Shown here piece after piece: positions 50,356-55,051 of a DNA stretch of 55,051 bases. The notes below the pieces were generated by a model. That model was not told the DNA's origin, made no database searches, and was given only the letters and a program-made list of their open reading frames with translations. The translations under genes were made by a program, and so were the position numbers. The DNA comes from an uncultured bacterium (GTDB taxonomy: Bacteria; Desulfobacterota_D; UBA1144): the NCBI GenBank assembly GCA_913050325.1, contig CAJWZP010000008.1, forward strand, positions 1 to 55,051. Direction: 5' to 3'. Position 1 is the stretch's first letter; every line of letters begins with the position of its first letter.

Positions 50356-51012
50356 TTATCTTCTATTTTTTCCGTATCTCAATTCTTCTTCATATGTTTG
50401 GAATTCTTCAATATATTTCTCTTTAAATTCTTTAAACCTTCTTGATTCCTCTAAAGCAGAATTTATTTCAGATAAAACAACTGAATTATTTTCAGGATCA
50501 ATAGATAAAAAGACTTCCAAATCCCCTTGCTTCCAAATATATGTTTCAAAGGAATAAATAGACGATTCAGATGTTGGTTCCGAATAGTTATCAACTAAAA
50601 AATTATACAAAGCAGATACGATTTGATCTAAATTTGTTGAATTAAGTGCATCAATAAAAATTCTAGATGAAAGGAAATCTCCATCAAAAAAATCGACGTT
50701 TGATTCTATATTTTTATATGAAAAAGAATTTTTTGTATCAAGAAGACTGCCGTCTACTGAATAAATTTTTAAATCTTTTCTAGAATCTCTGGATGAGGAA
50801 AACTTAATATTCTTTTCATCTAGCTTTTTTTCTAATTTACCACCTGTAATTTTTGAGTTAAAACCTGAAACTAAATTGTATGATTTAAAATCAATATTTT
50901 CGGCTTGCTTATCTTCTGGAAAGGCCCAGTCAGGCCTTTTTTCCCATGTATCAGAAACCCACGAGCAGGAAAATAGAATTAATGACAATATTATGATACC
51001 AAAATGTTTCAT
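50356..51012 (-). CDS. Lipoprotein, 218 aa, unknown function
   Basis: The N-terminus FGIIILSLILFSCSW has a lipobox with cysteine at residue 16. The mature part is acidic and Ser/Asp-rich, with a C-terminal charged helical region (ESRRFKEFKEKYIEEFQTYEEELR) that may be a coiled coil. I recognise no family. It is convergent with ecm (1 bp apart) and 3 bp after the small secreted gene upstream; both may be periplasmic partners. Confidence 0.65.
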   Translation of the reverse strand: MKHFGIIILSLILFSCSWVSDTWEKRPDWAFPEDKQAENIDFKSYNLVSGFNSKITGGKLEKKLDEKNIKFSSSRDSRKDLKIYSVDGSLLDTKNSFSYKNIESNVDFFDGDFLSSRIFIDALNSTNLDQIVSALYNFLVDNYSEPTSESSIYSFETYIWKQGDLEVFLSIDPENNSVVLSEINSALEESRRFKEFKEKYIEEFQTYEEELRYGKNRR

Positions 51013-51015
51013 ATT

Positions 51016-51228
51016 TTAATATTTATCTCTAGGAGTACCTGGTTTTAATTTCTTATTTTTATTATCAGATTGTTTATTTGTAAAATCTTTAATCTTAACC
51101 TCAATTGTATGATGTTTTACTTCTTTATTTTTTTTCCCATAATTCCAATCCTTACGAGGTGATGCCTCGACAACAATTAGAAAACTTTGGACTAGAAATA
51201 AAAAAACAGAAACCCTAATAAAAAACAT
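51016..51228 (-). CDS. Small secreted basic protein, 70 aa
   Basis: Residues 1-23 are a signal peptide (FFIRVSVFLFLVQSFLIVVEA). The mature ~47 residues are very rich in Lys, Asn and Asp with a KHHTIEV segment. Unrecognised. It leads the adjacent lipoprotein gene and has TATTAT eight bases before its ATG, so it probably has almost no leader. It diverges from tonB. Confidence 0.5.
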   Translation of the reverse strand: MFFIRVSVFLFLVQSFLIVVEASPRKDWNYGKKNKEVKHHTIEVKIKDFTNKQSDNKNKKLKPGTPRDKY

Positions 51229-51263: not shown

Positions 51264-52058
51264 ATGAAAAAAATAATTAAAAAAATAAAGAGAAATATAT
51301 ACTTATTTTTATCTATACTAATTCATACTCTAATTTTTTTGATAGCTCTTTTTCTATCTGATTTTGATCTAATTTATAAAAAACCCTTAAAATATATTCA
51401 AATAACAGATATCACACAGGAAAGTAATGAAATTGATAATGATGCAGATAAACTAGCCAAAAAAAGTAATAAAGCTAAAAATGAGATTGCACCAAAAGGC
51501 AAAATCGATAATTTTGAACAACCTTCAATAAAAAGTAAAAAATCTGATTTATCAAGAAAAAACAAAGAAGAGTCAGATAATAAAAAAAAGAAAAAGGTTG
51601 ATTTCGGAGATTTAGCAAAAAAAGAGGAGGAAAAAGATGAAAAGGATTCAAAGGAAAATATAAAAACAGAAGAAAATATTTTTAAGCCTAAGATAACATC
51701 TAAAGATTCTTTCAGTAATGAAGAAACTGTTGATTTAGATACTAAACAATTTAAATATATTTCTTATTTCATGAAAATTAAAAGAAAAATTGAGATGGTA
51801 TGGTCTTATCCAAAAGAAGCTTATAGAAAAGGTCAGACAGGTAAAGTTCTTATTCTTATGTCTTTAAATAAAACTGGAAAATTAATAGATGTTAAAGTTC
51901 TCAATTCCTCGGGATATAAATTATTAGATAGCGAAGCTAAAAATTCAATTGTGGATGCAGCTCCATATCCACCATTTCCATCTTCATGGGGTAATCTTGA
52001 AAAATTAAATATAAGAGTTTCATTTTCATACCAAGTAGGCTCTTGGGGATTTAGATAA
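51264..52058 (+). CDS. tonB: TonB-like energy-transducing protein
   Basis: 264 aa. A basic N-terminus precedes one membrane helix (~11-33), then a long Lys/Glu/Asp/Ser-rich linker (~45-170) in place of the usual proline-rich spacer. The C-terminal ~80 residues, YPKEAYRKGQTGKVLILMSL through VLNSSGYKLLDSEAKNSI, match the TonB C-terminal domain. It links ExbB/ExbD (38 kb) to outer-membrane receptors. TolA is an alternative given the charged linker, but the Y-P-A-x-G-x-G-V layout favours TonB. It overlaps purM by 8 bp. Confidence 0.82.
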   Translation: MKKIIKKIKRNIYLFLSILIHTLIFLIALFLSDFDLIYKKPLKYIQITDITQESNEIDNDADKLAKKSNKAKNEIAPKGKIDNFEQPSIKSKKSDLSRKNKEESDNKKKKKVDFGDLAKKEEEKDEKDSKENIKTEENIFKPKITSKDSFSNEETVDLDTKQFKYISYFMKIKRKIEMVWSYPKEAYRKGQTGKVLILMSLNKTGKLIDVKVLNSSGYKLLDSEAKNSIVDAAPYPPFPSSWGNLEKLNIRVSFSYQVGSWGFR

Positions 52059-53070
52059 TTTCGAAACCTTTTTCTTTAACAACCTCTCCTATTACAAAAA
52101 ATCTCTCATTTAATTTTGCTAATTTTTTTGATATTTCCAAAAGTTTTTTCTTGTCAATTATAATAGCCATTCCAATTCCCATATTAAAAACTCTCGACAT
52201 TTCCTCAAATGATAATCCAGATCTTTTCATAATATCATTAAAAACTTTTGGTATTTTCCAATTGTCTTTAAATATTTTGATACCGTAATCTTTATTCACT
52301 GATCTCGGAATATTTTCAATTAATCCCCCACCAGTTATATTTGCAATTCCTAAAATACCAGATTTTTTATTATATATTTTGTTAATTAAATTCACATAGA
52401 TTCTAGTTGGTTTCATTAATGATTCTAATAAAACTTTATTATTTTTTCTTTTTAATTCTTTTGGACTATATAGTTTTCTAATCAAAGAATAGCCATTAGA
52501 ATGAGGGCCTGATGATGGCAAGCCAATTATTAAATTACCTTTTTTTACTTTGTTAATATCTATCATGTTTTGATAATCAACAATACCAGTACAAAATCCT
52601 GCGATATCAAATTCTTTAGAACTATACATTCCTGGCATTTCAGCTGTTTCACCGCCTACAATAGAACAGTTTGCATCTAGACATCCTTTAGAAATCCCTT
52701 TTACAATTCTTGAATGATAAGTTGATGAGAGTTTTGATGTAGCTATATAATCTAAAAAAAATAATGGTTTTCCACCTGTACAAATTAAATCATTTACGCA
52801 CATTGCAACAAGATCAATACCTAAACCAGATATTTTATCTGTAGCAACACCTAGTTGAACTTTGGTGCCAACACCATCTGTACAAGAAACTAGAACAGGA
52901 TTTTTTATGTTTTTTGTATTTAATTTATATAATGCAGCAAAAGAAGTTGTATTTCCAAGTACATTTTTGGATAGTGTTTTTTTAACAAATGGCTGAATCT
53001 TTTTTACAAACAGATTTCCTTCATCAATATTGACTCCAGATTTCTTATAAGTAATTTTTTTATTCACCAT
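52051..53070 (-). CDS. purM: Phosphoribosylformylglycinamidine cyclo-ligase (AIR synthetase)
   Basis: PurM makes aminoimidazole ribotide in purine synthesis. The N-terminal YKKSGVNIDEGN, the CTDGVGTKVQLG motif, GLGIDLVAMCVNDL and GGETAEMPGMY are diagnostic. 339 aa is standard. It begins inside the end of the 51-residue membrane-protein gene (11-bp overlap), so it is transcribed from the alternative complex III operon, which is an unusual pairing. Confidence 0.96.
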   Translation of the reverse strand: MVNKKITYKKSGVNIDEGNLFVKKIQPFVKKTLSKNVLGNTTSFAALYKLNTKNIKNPVLVSCTDGVGTKVQLGVATDKISGLGIDLVAMCVNDLICTGGKPLFFLDYIATSKLSSTYHSRIVKGISKGCLDANCSIVGGETAEMPGMYSSKEFDIAGFCTGIVDYQNMIDINKVKKGNLIIGLPSSGPHSNGYSLIRKLYSPKELKRKNNKVLLESLMKPTRIYVNLINKIYNKKSGILGIANITGGGLIENIPRSVNKDYGIKIFKDNWKIPKVFNDIMKRSGLSFEEMSRVFNMGIGMAIIIDKKKLLEISKKLAKLNERFFVIGEVVKEKGFEII

Positions 53071-53215
53071 AATATATGTTAAATATAGTACGAATTAGAT
53101 GAGGAATAAAGGGTCCAAGCATTGAAATAGTTACTAACAATGAAATAAACCCGAAAACACCTAATGCAAATCCAATCGCTCCACCTTTCCCTAATAAGTT
53201 ACTTTTTTTATCCAT
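53060..53215 (-). CDS. 51-aa single-span membrane protein in the alternative complex III operon
   Basis: A short frame (ATG 53215 to TAA 53062-53060) too small for a usual ORF list. It encodes MDKKSNLLGKGG, one hydrophobic span AIGFALGVFGFISLLVTISM (residues ~13-32), then LGPFIPHLIRTIFN and a short tail. Its ATG overlaps the actF stop as TAATG and its stop overlaps the purM start, so it is translationally coupled on both sides. It may be a small accessory subunit (ActG-like position) of alternative complex III. Membership is inferred from position only. Confidence 0.65.
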   Translation of the reverse strand: MDKKSNLLGKGGAIGFALGVFGFISLLVTISMLGPFIPHLIRTIFNIYYGE

Positions 53216-54444
53216 TAGTGATGATCTCCGCCCTCTAATTTTTTAATCAAATATTTATCATTAGAAGCATAAACTGGAAATAATGATAAAAATTTAGTGA
53301 CACACAATAAAAATAAACTTAAAAAACCAAATGTTACCAATACAACCTCAAGACCAATGTGAAAATGATCGTGCATTAATGAAGGATATATAAGCCATAT
53401 TTTTTCTAAAAATAAACCACATAATGAAACGGTTGCTATTGAAACCATAACAGGTTTAACTAATTTATTAGTTCTAGGTATTAGTGAAACAAATGGTATA
53501 ACAAAAACACATGTAAGAATGACCCATATAAAAGTTCTATAAGGTTCTTGGAAGACTCTTAATCCTACATAGCCTGTTTCTTCAGGCATATTTCCATACC
53601 AAACAGGTAAAAATTGAGAGTACATGCTATAAAGCCAAAAAACAGACAATCCAAACATTAACTTGCCGCAGTCATAAAATTGCATTTCTGTAATTACTTT
53701 ATCTAGTTTAAATTTCAAAGTTAACATTGATGATATGATAACTGTCAGCATTAAAGCACCTAACACAGAAGCCATAAAGTAATATACTCCAAATAAAGTG
53801 CTATAAAAATGAGAGTCCAAAGACATCATAAAATCAAAGGCAAGAAAGCTCATAGAAAGTGCATAGATAAAGGCTATTGCAATTGATAATTTATATAGTT
53901 TTGAATCGAAATTACCTTCATTTTCCTTTAGAGGTTTAGAAAGAAAAGCAAAAAAACCTTTGGTTAAATTAGTTCCAGCTAAATCTTGTCTTAATGAATT
54001 ATATAAATAAAAATAAATTAAAATATGAAGGCCACCTACAAAAAGATATGTTCTAGAGAATACAAAAACTTCGTTGAGCCAAATAGCTTTTTGACTATAA
54101 TATGGTTTTGTTGTCATGTAAGGAAGAGTATATTCGCCTCCAATATAAATAAAAATTATAAATATAAAAACAAAAGGAATAAAGGAACCTAACGATTCAA
54201 AAATTCTTATTAGGGGCCTACCCCAACTTGATTCAGTAATCCTCATTGCAGAAGCAAATAATAAAGCTCCGTGGCTTAAGCCAGCCCAAAAAAGAAAATT
54301 TAAATGAAAAGCAGTCCAAGCCATATCAGCATGACTCCCCAATGCATAATAAACAAAGGATCCAAAACCAACTATTATTCCTATATAAAATAATTTGGTT
54401 AAACCTTTCGAAAAAACTAAAATCTTATTTAAATCTTCACTCAT
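53215..54444 (-). CDS. actF: Alternative complex III membrane subunit ActF
   Basis: 409 aa with about ten membrane helices, of the NrfD/PsrC-like quinone-interacting type. The segment LPVWYGNMPEETGYVGLRV is characteristic of ActC/ActF subunits of quinol:cytochrome c oxidoreductase (ACIII). A His-rich end (GGDHH) closes it. It is encoded 7 bp after actE and 1-bp coupled to the small membrane protein that follows. It oxidises menaquinol as part of the complex. Confidence 0.87.
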   Translation of the reverse strand: MSEDLNKILVFSKGLTKLFYIGIIVGFGSFVYYALGSHADMAWTAFHLNFLFWAGLSHGALLFASAMRITESSWGRPLIRIFESLGSFIPFVFIFIIFIYIGGEYTLPYMTTKPYYSQKAIWLNEVFVFSRTYLFVGGLHILIYFYLYNSLRQDLAGTNLTKGFFAFLSKPLKENEGNFDSKLYKLSIAIAFIYALSMSFLAFDFMMSLDSHFYSTLFGVYYFMASVLGALMLTVIISSMLTLKFKLDKVITEMQFYDCGKLMFGLSVFWLYSMYSQFLPVWYGNMPEETGYVGLRVFQEPYRTFIWVILTCVFVIPFVSLIPRTNKLVKPVMVSIATVSLCGLFLEKIWLIYPSLMHDHFHIGLEVVLVTFGFLSLFLLCVTKFLSLFPVYASNDKYLIKKLEGGDHH

Positions 54445-54451
54445 AATAAAT

Positions 54452-54967
54452 CTACTGCTGCTTAATTTTTCCTTGTAAGTATCTTACGTAGTAAACGATA
54501 TCCCATGCTTCTTGCTCATTAATTCTAGCATAAGCAGGCATCATAACTTTTCCACCATATCTTATATATGCATAAATATAGCCATCAGTTCTTTTTTGTG
54601 TCTGAGCTTGCTTAAGATTTACTGGATAGAAATACGCGTTTTTTCTCAGATCATTTTTAATGACTGGGCCATATCCACCCCCATCCATACCATGGCAAGC
54701 ATAACAGTAAGTTTGATAAAGCTCTTTACCTTGTTTAATTGATTCGGTTCCTCTATTAGGACCTACTCCAATTTCTTCATATTCAGTTCTTTCAAGCTCT
54801 CTATTTTCTTCTTCTAATCTTATATTATTATCAGGATATTCTCTTGCCTCTTCATACGGTTTGACGCTTGGTGCATCCCACATATCTGTTGACCATGGAA
54901 GTGCAAAAGAGGAACAAGCAAAAGAAAAATTCAAGATAAAAACTAAAACAGAAATATTATTCTTCAT
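54452..54967 (-). CDS. actE: Alternative complex III monohaem cytochrome c subunit ActE
   Basis: 171 aa. A signal segment (ISVLVFILNFSFACSSFA) may include a lipobox cysteine, as in characterised ActE lipoproteins. One haem c motif, CYACH, is followed by GMDGGGYGP, and the axial methionine is likely in KVMMPAYARI. The C-terminal helix ends in YYVRYLQGKI. I start at ATG 54967 with GGGGGA upstream; ATG 54982 is also in frame but lacks a site. It overlaps the upstream frame by 11 bp. Confidence 0.87.
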   Translation of the reverse strand: MKNNISVLVFILNFSFACSSFALPWSTDMWDAPSVKPYEEAREYPDNNIRLEEENRELERTEYEEIGVGPNRGTESIKQGKELYQTYCYACHGMDGGGYGPVIKNDLRKNAYFYPVNLKQAQTQKRTDGYIYAYIRYGGKVMMPAYARINEQEAWDIVYYVRYLQGKIKQQ

Positions 54968-55051
54968 TATTTCCCCCTTCATTTTTTTCTTTAACCGGGG
55001 TCGACTTTGATAACATTGGAGTTTTTACTTCAACATCTTTCTTTTCTTCAG
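54957..55051 (-). CDS. actD: C-terminal tail of the gene upstream of actE (probable ActD), cut by window edge
   Basis: An open frame enters from the right edge and ends at TAA 54959-54957. The 30 visible residues are highly charged (EEKKDVEVKTPMLSK, then a Lys/Glu/Asn-rich end GGNNEE). In ACIII operons ActD precedes ActE, so this is likely its tail, but the visible part has no domain. The stop overlaps the actE start. Confidence 0.5.
   Translation of the reverse strand, partial: EEKKDVEVKTPMLSKSTPVKEKNEGGNNEE

Follow-up and report, generated by a model that had tools for sequence, protein, structure and literature searches.

The 55,051-nucleotide stretch of DNA analysed here (the window) carries a small gene, at 53060..53215 on the minus strand, whose 51-amino-acid product is likely to be a lineage-specific, single-span accessory (supernumerary) membrane subunit of alternative complex III (ACIII) in Candidatus Dadabacteria, an association that we infer. 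The gene is recognized from its open reading frame, from its conservation after actF and from its pN/pS ratio. It is almost certainly a real gene, and with high probability its product belongs to ACIII biology, as either a subunit or an assembly factor. The protein represents a family that is new and previously undescribed, of a kind already familiar. Many bacteria have ACIII in place of cytochrome bc1, and what subunits it contains is guesswork beyond the four organisms that have been studied structurally. In a widespread uncultured group, ACIII now gains a small protein family that is conserved and unnamed. The profile lets annotators call a gene missed by family libraries, and the finding suggests that different lineages have independent accessory subunits.

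Within the act operon (actABCDEF-smORF) the small gene takes seventh place. Coupling joins its start codon to the stop codon of actF, and its occurrence coincides exactly with that of ActF. Its product, read from an ATG in the minus-strand frame 53060-53215, is MDKKSNLLGKGGAIGFALGVFGFISLLVTISMLGPFIPHLIRTIFNIYYGE. Position 53215 is both the end of actF and the start of the small gene, a single A closing the stop codon of the one and opening the ATG of the other, and the resulting TAATG stop/start overlap (53213..53217, minus strand) provides for translational coupling. At its other end (53060), the small gene overlaps purM, which starts at 53070, by 11 bp. The first-pass annotation had given these coordinates, the length, the strand and both overlaps, all of which are exact in the sequence. 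Furthermore, the list of open reading frames of the window contains no opposite-strand frame of at least 30 amino acids across the small gene. A GGAG ribosome-binding motif, recognized from the sequence and from relatives, lies within the 3' end of actF (53226..53229, minus strand), 10 bases 5' of the small-gene ATG. Among 47 scored loci of relatives, the actF stop and the small-gene start overlap in 31 and are at most four bases apart in 43 altogether; among the other four, one has a frameshift at the end of actF (G010), and for another the script chose an internal start (G052). Similarly, a motif of the GGAG or GGAGG type is found about 6-12 bases upstream of the small gene, within the C-terminal codons of ActF, in nearly all relatives. 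In most relatives this motif is encoded in the conserved Gly-Gly-His end of ActF (53218-53235 in window coordinates), and the conservation of the ActF C-terminus may partly be a constraint on the RNA, which has to supply the small gene with its ribosome-binding site. At the G010 locus (L006, contig C18), actF has an early TGA or frameshift near its 3' end, probably an assembly error or a recent change, and the small gene is intact there.

The 409-amino-acid actF product (53215..54444, minus strand), an NrfD-like ACIII membrane subunit, matched the ActF chains of Flavobacterium (6btm_F; 3.6e-28) and Rhodothermus (6f0k_F; 5.7e-28) ACIII in phmmer searches. A model of ActF from a close relative of the same family gave TM-scores, on the target, of 0.82-0.86 against five known ActF chains (including 6btm_F, 8k9e_F, 6lod_F and 6f0k_F), the query in this case including the small protein at its end. 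Upstream lies actE (54452..54982, minus strand), which encodes the monoheme cytochrome c subunit (PF00034, E=3.6e-13) and has the same place in the operon of a sister genome (G001, locus L059). In that genome the operon is contiguous and reads actA, actB, actC, actD, actE, actF, small gene, purM. It thus holds, in order, a pentaheme ActA (five CxxCH motifs), ActB, NrfD-like ActC (PF03916) and ActF, ActD (PF11821, E=2.5e-41, 235 amino acids) and monoheme ActE, with matches to cytochrome families. As actD precedes actE there, the 5'-open frame at the contig edge of the window (54957..55049, minus strand) is probably the C-terminal end of actD. The contig terminates inside the act operon (54957-55051), probably in actD, and an ActC-type match is found near the end of another contig of the same genome (C5, 124159-125139 of 125914).

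The distribution of the small gene was determined with a family profile, built from a 35-row alignment of small proteins and searched against 58 genomes of the phylum Candidatus Dadabacteria. The profile matched 56 of the 58, with one copy in each (E 5e-11 to 2e-27), and by coordinates every one of these matches adjoins ActF on the same strand. The two genomes without the small gene (G030 and G047) are also without a detectable ActF. When the small protein was used as a single query, all 14 genomes of its own family were recovered, and other families only weakly. The comparison proposed in the first-pass annotation bears out the gene: relatives keep an unbroken frame 3' of actF, the protein is conserved and synonymous sites turn over. 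In the window's own family (14 sequences) mean pS is 0.67 and pN 0.16 (pN/pS 0.24), and in a second family (13 sequences) the corresponding values are 0.68, 0.14 and 0.21. Synonymous sites are therefore near saturation while the amino-acid sequence is kept. Variable columns at codon positions 1, 2 and 3 number 22, 14 and 43 of 46 in the first family and 23, 14 and 43 of 46 in the second; because variation falls mostly at third positions, it is the amino acids that are conserved and not the DNA. Separately, in three records that bear the title Candidatus Dadabacteria (J088, J046 and J135; loci L078, L124 and L135) ActF is only 29-36% identical and the small gene is missing; perhaps they carry the wrong label and belong to other groups.

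These data bear on two explanations in which the peptide would have no importance of its own. A frame this short, for which Pfam and NCBIfam matches are absent, might be open by chance; however, its presence in 56 of 58 genomes and the codon-position pattern contradict this, and we consider the chance-frame reading ruled out, with a negligible probability. The 11-bp overlap with purM could likewise suggest that the frame serves purM (52051..53070, minus strand; TIGR00878, E=2e-110) as a leader or couples its translation. However, this overlap is specific to the window's genus, and purM lies 3' of the small gene only in families f1 and f3. Other genera have a different spacing or no purM there, an enoyl-CoA-hydratase-like frame or others following instead, mostly more than 100 bases away, and the small frame persists regardless. 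As most relatives are without a downstream purM, and as selection acts on the amino acids, the leader reading is also largely ruled out; we regard it as very improbable. Since the downstream gene varies, ActF is the constant partner, and the unit is actF and the small gene.

The small proteins have a charged N-terminus and a single hydrophobic stretch, after which come a Gly shared by all, a Pro shared by nearly all, and a short tail. The hydrophobic span is present in all 35 aligned members; the tail reads IAPLMNKLPW in many lineages, and that of the window's family is longer and amphipathic. AlphaFold, run with the family alignment, predicts a helix at residues 3-33, a kink at the Gly-Pro and a second helix at 37-49 (mean pLDDT 85.7, pTM 0.48). 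The one clear membrane span that had been proposed for this protein is thus borne out, by the predicted helix at 3-33 and by the hydrophobic stretch of the alignment. Neither a CxxCH motif nor a cysteine cluster occurs in the 35 rows, and, as there is no cofactor-binding motif, the protein would have no redox role. Against Pfam and NCBIfam, the window's protein had no match above a curated cut-off (the best, to DUF3285, scored 13.2 bits where the cut-off is 25), and among the 35 members no family was common to more than five (best E 0.0056). We also modelled a read-through fusion of ActF and the small protein, purely as a device, the two frames being in register in some relatives; with five fused rows in the alignment, ActF had pLDDT values mostly above 85 and the small part only 48-64, which gives no confident placement.

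The first-pass annotation had described a small membrane protein coupled to ACIII, in the position of an ActG-type subunit. In Chloroflexus aurantiacus the act genes are ordered actABCDEFG (Caur_0621-0627), with actG directly after actF (PMC3150298). ActG is a predicted ACIII membrane protein without redox cofactors; in Rhodothermus marinus it was seen by mass spectrometry, without density, and it is missing from some act clusters, while ActH of the R. marinus complex is lineage-specific (PMC5928083). The window's protein likewise is encoded in the act cluster after actF, is a small membrane protein without cofactor motifs and is not in every act cluster. It could therefore be a true ActG orthologue that has diverged past sequence recognition, a reading that we consider improbable. 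In a search of the PDB (including the ACIII entries 6lod and 8k9e) the profile found no ACIII chain at E<=10, and the 72 ACIII loci searched from other phyla (Gemmatimonadetes, Bacteroidetes-type, 'Deltaproteobacteria', Oligoflexales and others) yielded no matching frame. Similarly, 25 of the whole genomes carrying these loci gave a single match, weak (E=0.023) and within a 379-amino-acid frame, 17 genomes of another phylum gave no homologue, and no relative of the small protein was found among solved structures. Homology to ActG was judged here on the ACIII chains of the PDB. Furthermore, the ActG of Chloroflexus has been called specific to Chloroflexus (PMC9316378), which conflicts with PMC5928083 on whether Rhodothermus has a Chloroflexus-like ActG, so that the gene slot alone is weak evidence for ActG identity. 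Judged by sequence comparison, the protein appears ActG-like in position and probable role, and membership of the ActG family is not supported: unlike ActG, it has no detectable sequence relation to the ACIII chains in the PDB and, as far as searched, is confined to Dadabacteria. Thus, of the original proposal, a real protein tied to ACIII by its gene position and occupying the slot of Chloroflexus actG has held up, and descent from ActG has not. As a candidate membrane subunit that lacks cofactors and is encoded in the same operon, the protein also resembles ActD (PF11821), but ActD has a separate gene of 235 amino acids in that operon, and in R. marinus it has two spans (PMC5928083).

A point against a stable subunit is that an assembly factor would leave the same genomic pattern. 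A dedicated assembly or insertion factor for ACIII, acting as a transient partner of ActF, would be equally expected to show coupling, co-occurrence and selection, and other respiratory enzymes do have small membrane proteins that serve in their assembly. However, many of the very small one-span proteins that end such operons have, when studied, turned out to be subunits, and we consider a transient factor unlikely, if worth keeping in mind. CydX, CcoQ and PetG/L/N, for example, are proteins of about 30-60 amino acids with one helix, encoded within or at the end of an operon and often unannotated. The small protein is similar in size, helix number and operon place and belongs with a different enzyme, a likeness that carries no claim of sequence relationship. 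As an accessory subunit, it would be translated in coupling with ActF, its single helix then inserting beside the nascent ActF and packing on the membrane domain of ActC, ActF and ActD. At the membrane surface, the conserved Gly-Pro turn and the short helix at the C-terminus would stabilize ACIII or help to assemble it, in a role like that of the one-span accessory subunits CydX, CcoQ and the small cytochrome b6f subunits. As ACIII structures from other phyla have no relative of it in sequence, the complex can work without the small protein. On balance, we lean towards a phylum-wide, obligate ACIII subunit of Dadabacteria with a binding site of its own, for example on the ActF C-terminus or an oxidase partner, and unrelated to ActG or ActH. 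If this is true, ACIII, like the mitochondrial complexes, has gained lineage-specific supernumerary subunits several times.

In the library of papers that was searched, none links Dadabacteria with ACIII. In the window's genome there was no match to cytochrome b (the assembly is 92.7% complete, and control genomes gave matches) and one COX1, on another contig; ACIII is therefore probably its only complex III. Genomes of the window's own family are near 1 Mb, a size resembling that of streamlined marine Dadabacteria (about 1.22 Mb; PMC8115339). The purine biosynthesis gene purM (52051-53070) ends the act operon in the small-genome families f1 and f3 and not in the larger-genome families. Finally, beside a TonB-like gene (51264-52058) lie two small genes for predicted exported proteins or lipoproteins (51016-51228 and 50356-51012), one of them without a Pfam match; the pair is convergent with the act operon, and its order is kept in the sister genome.
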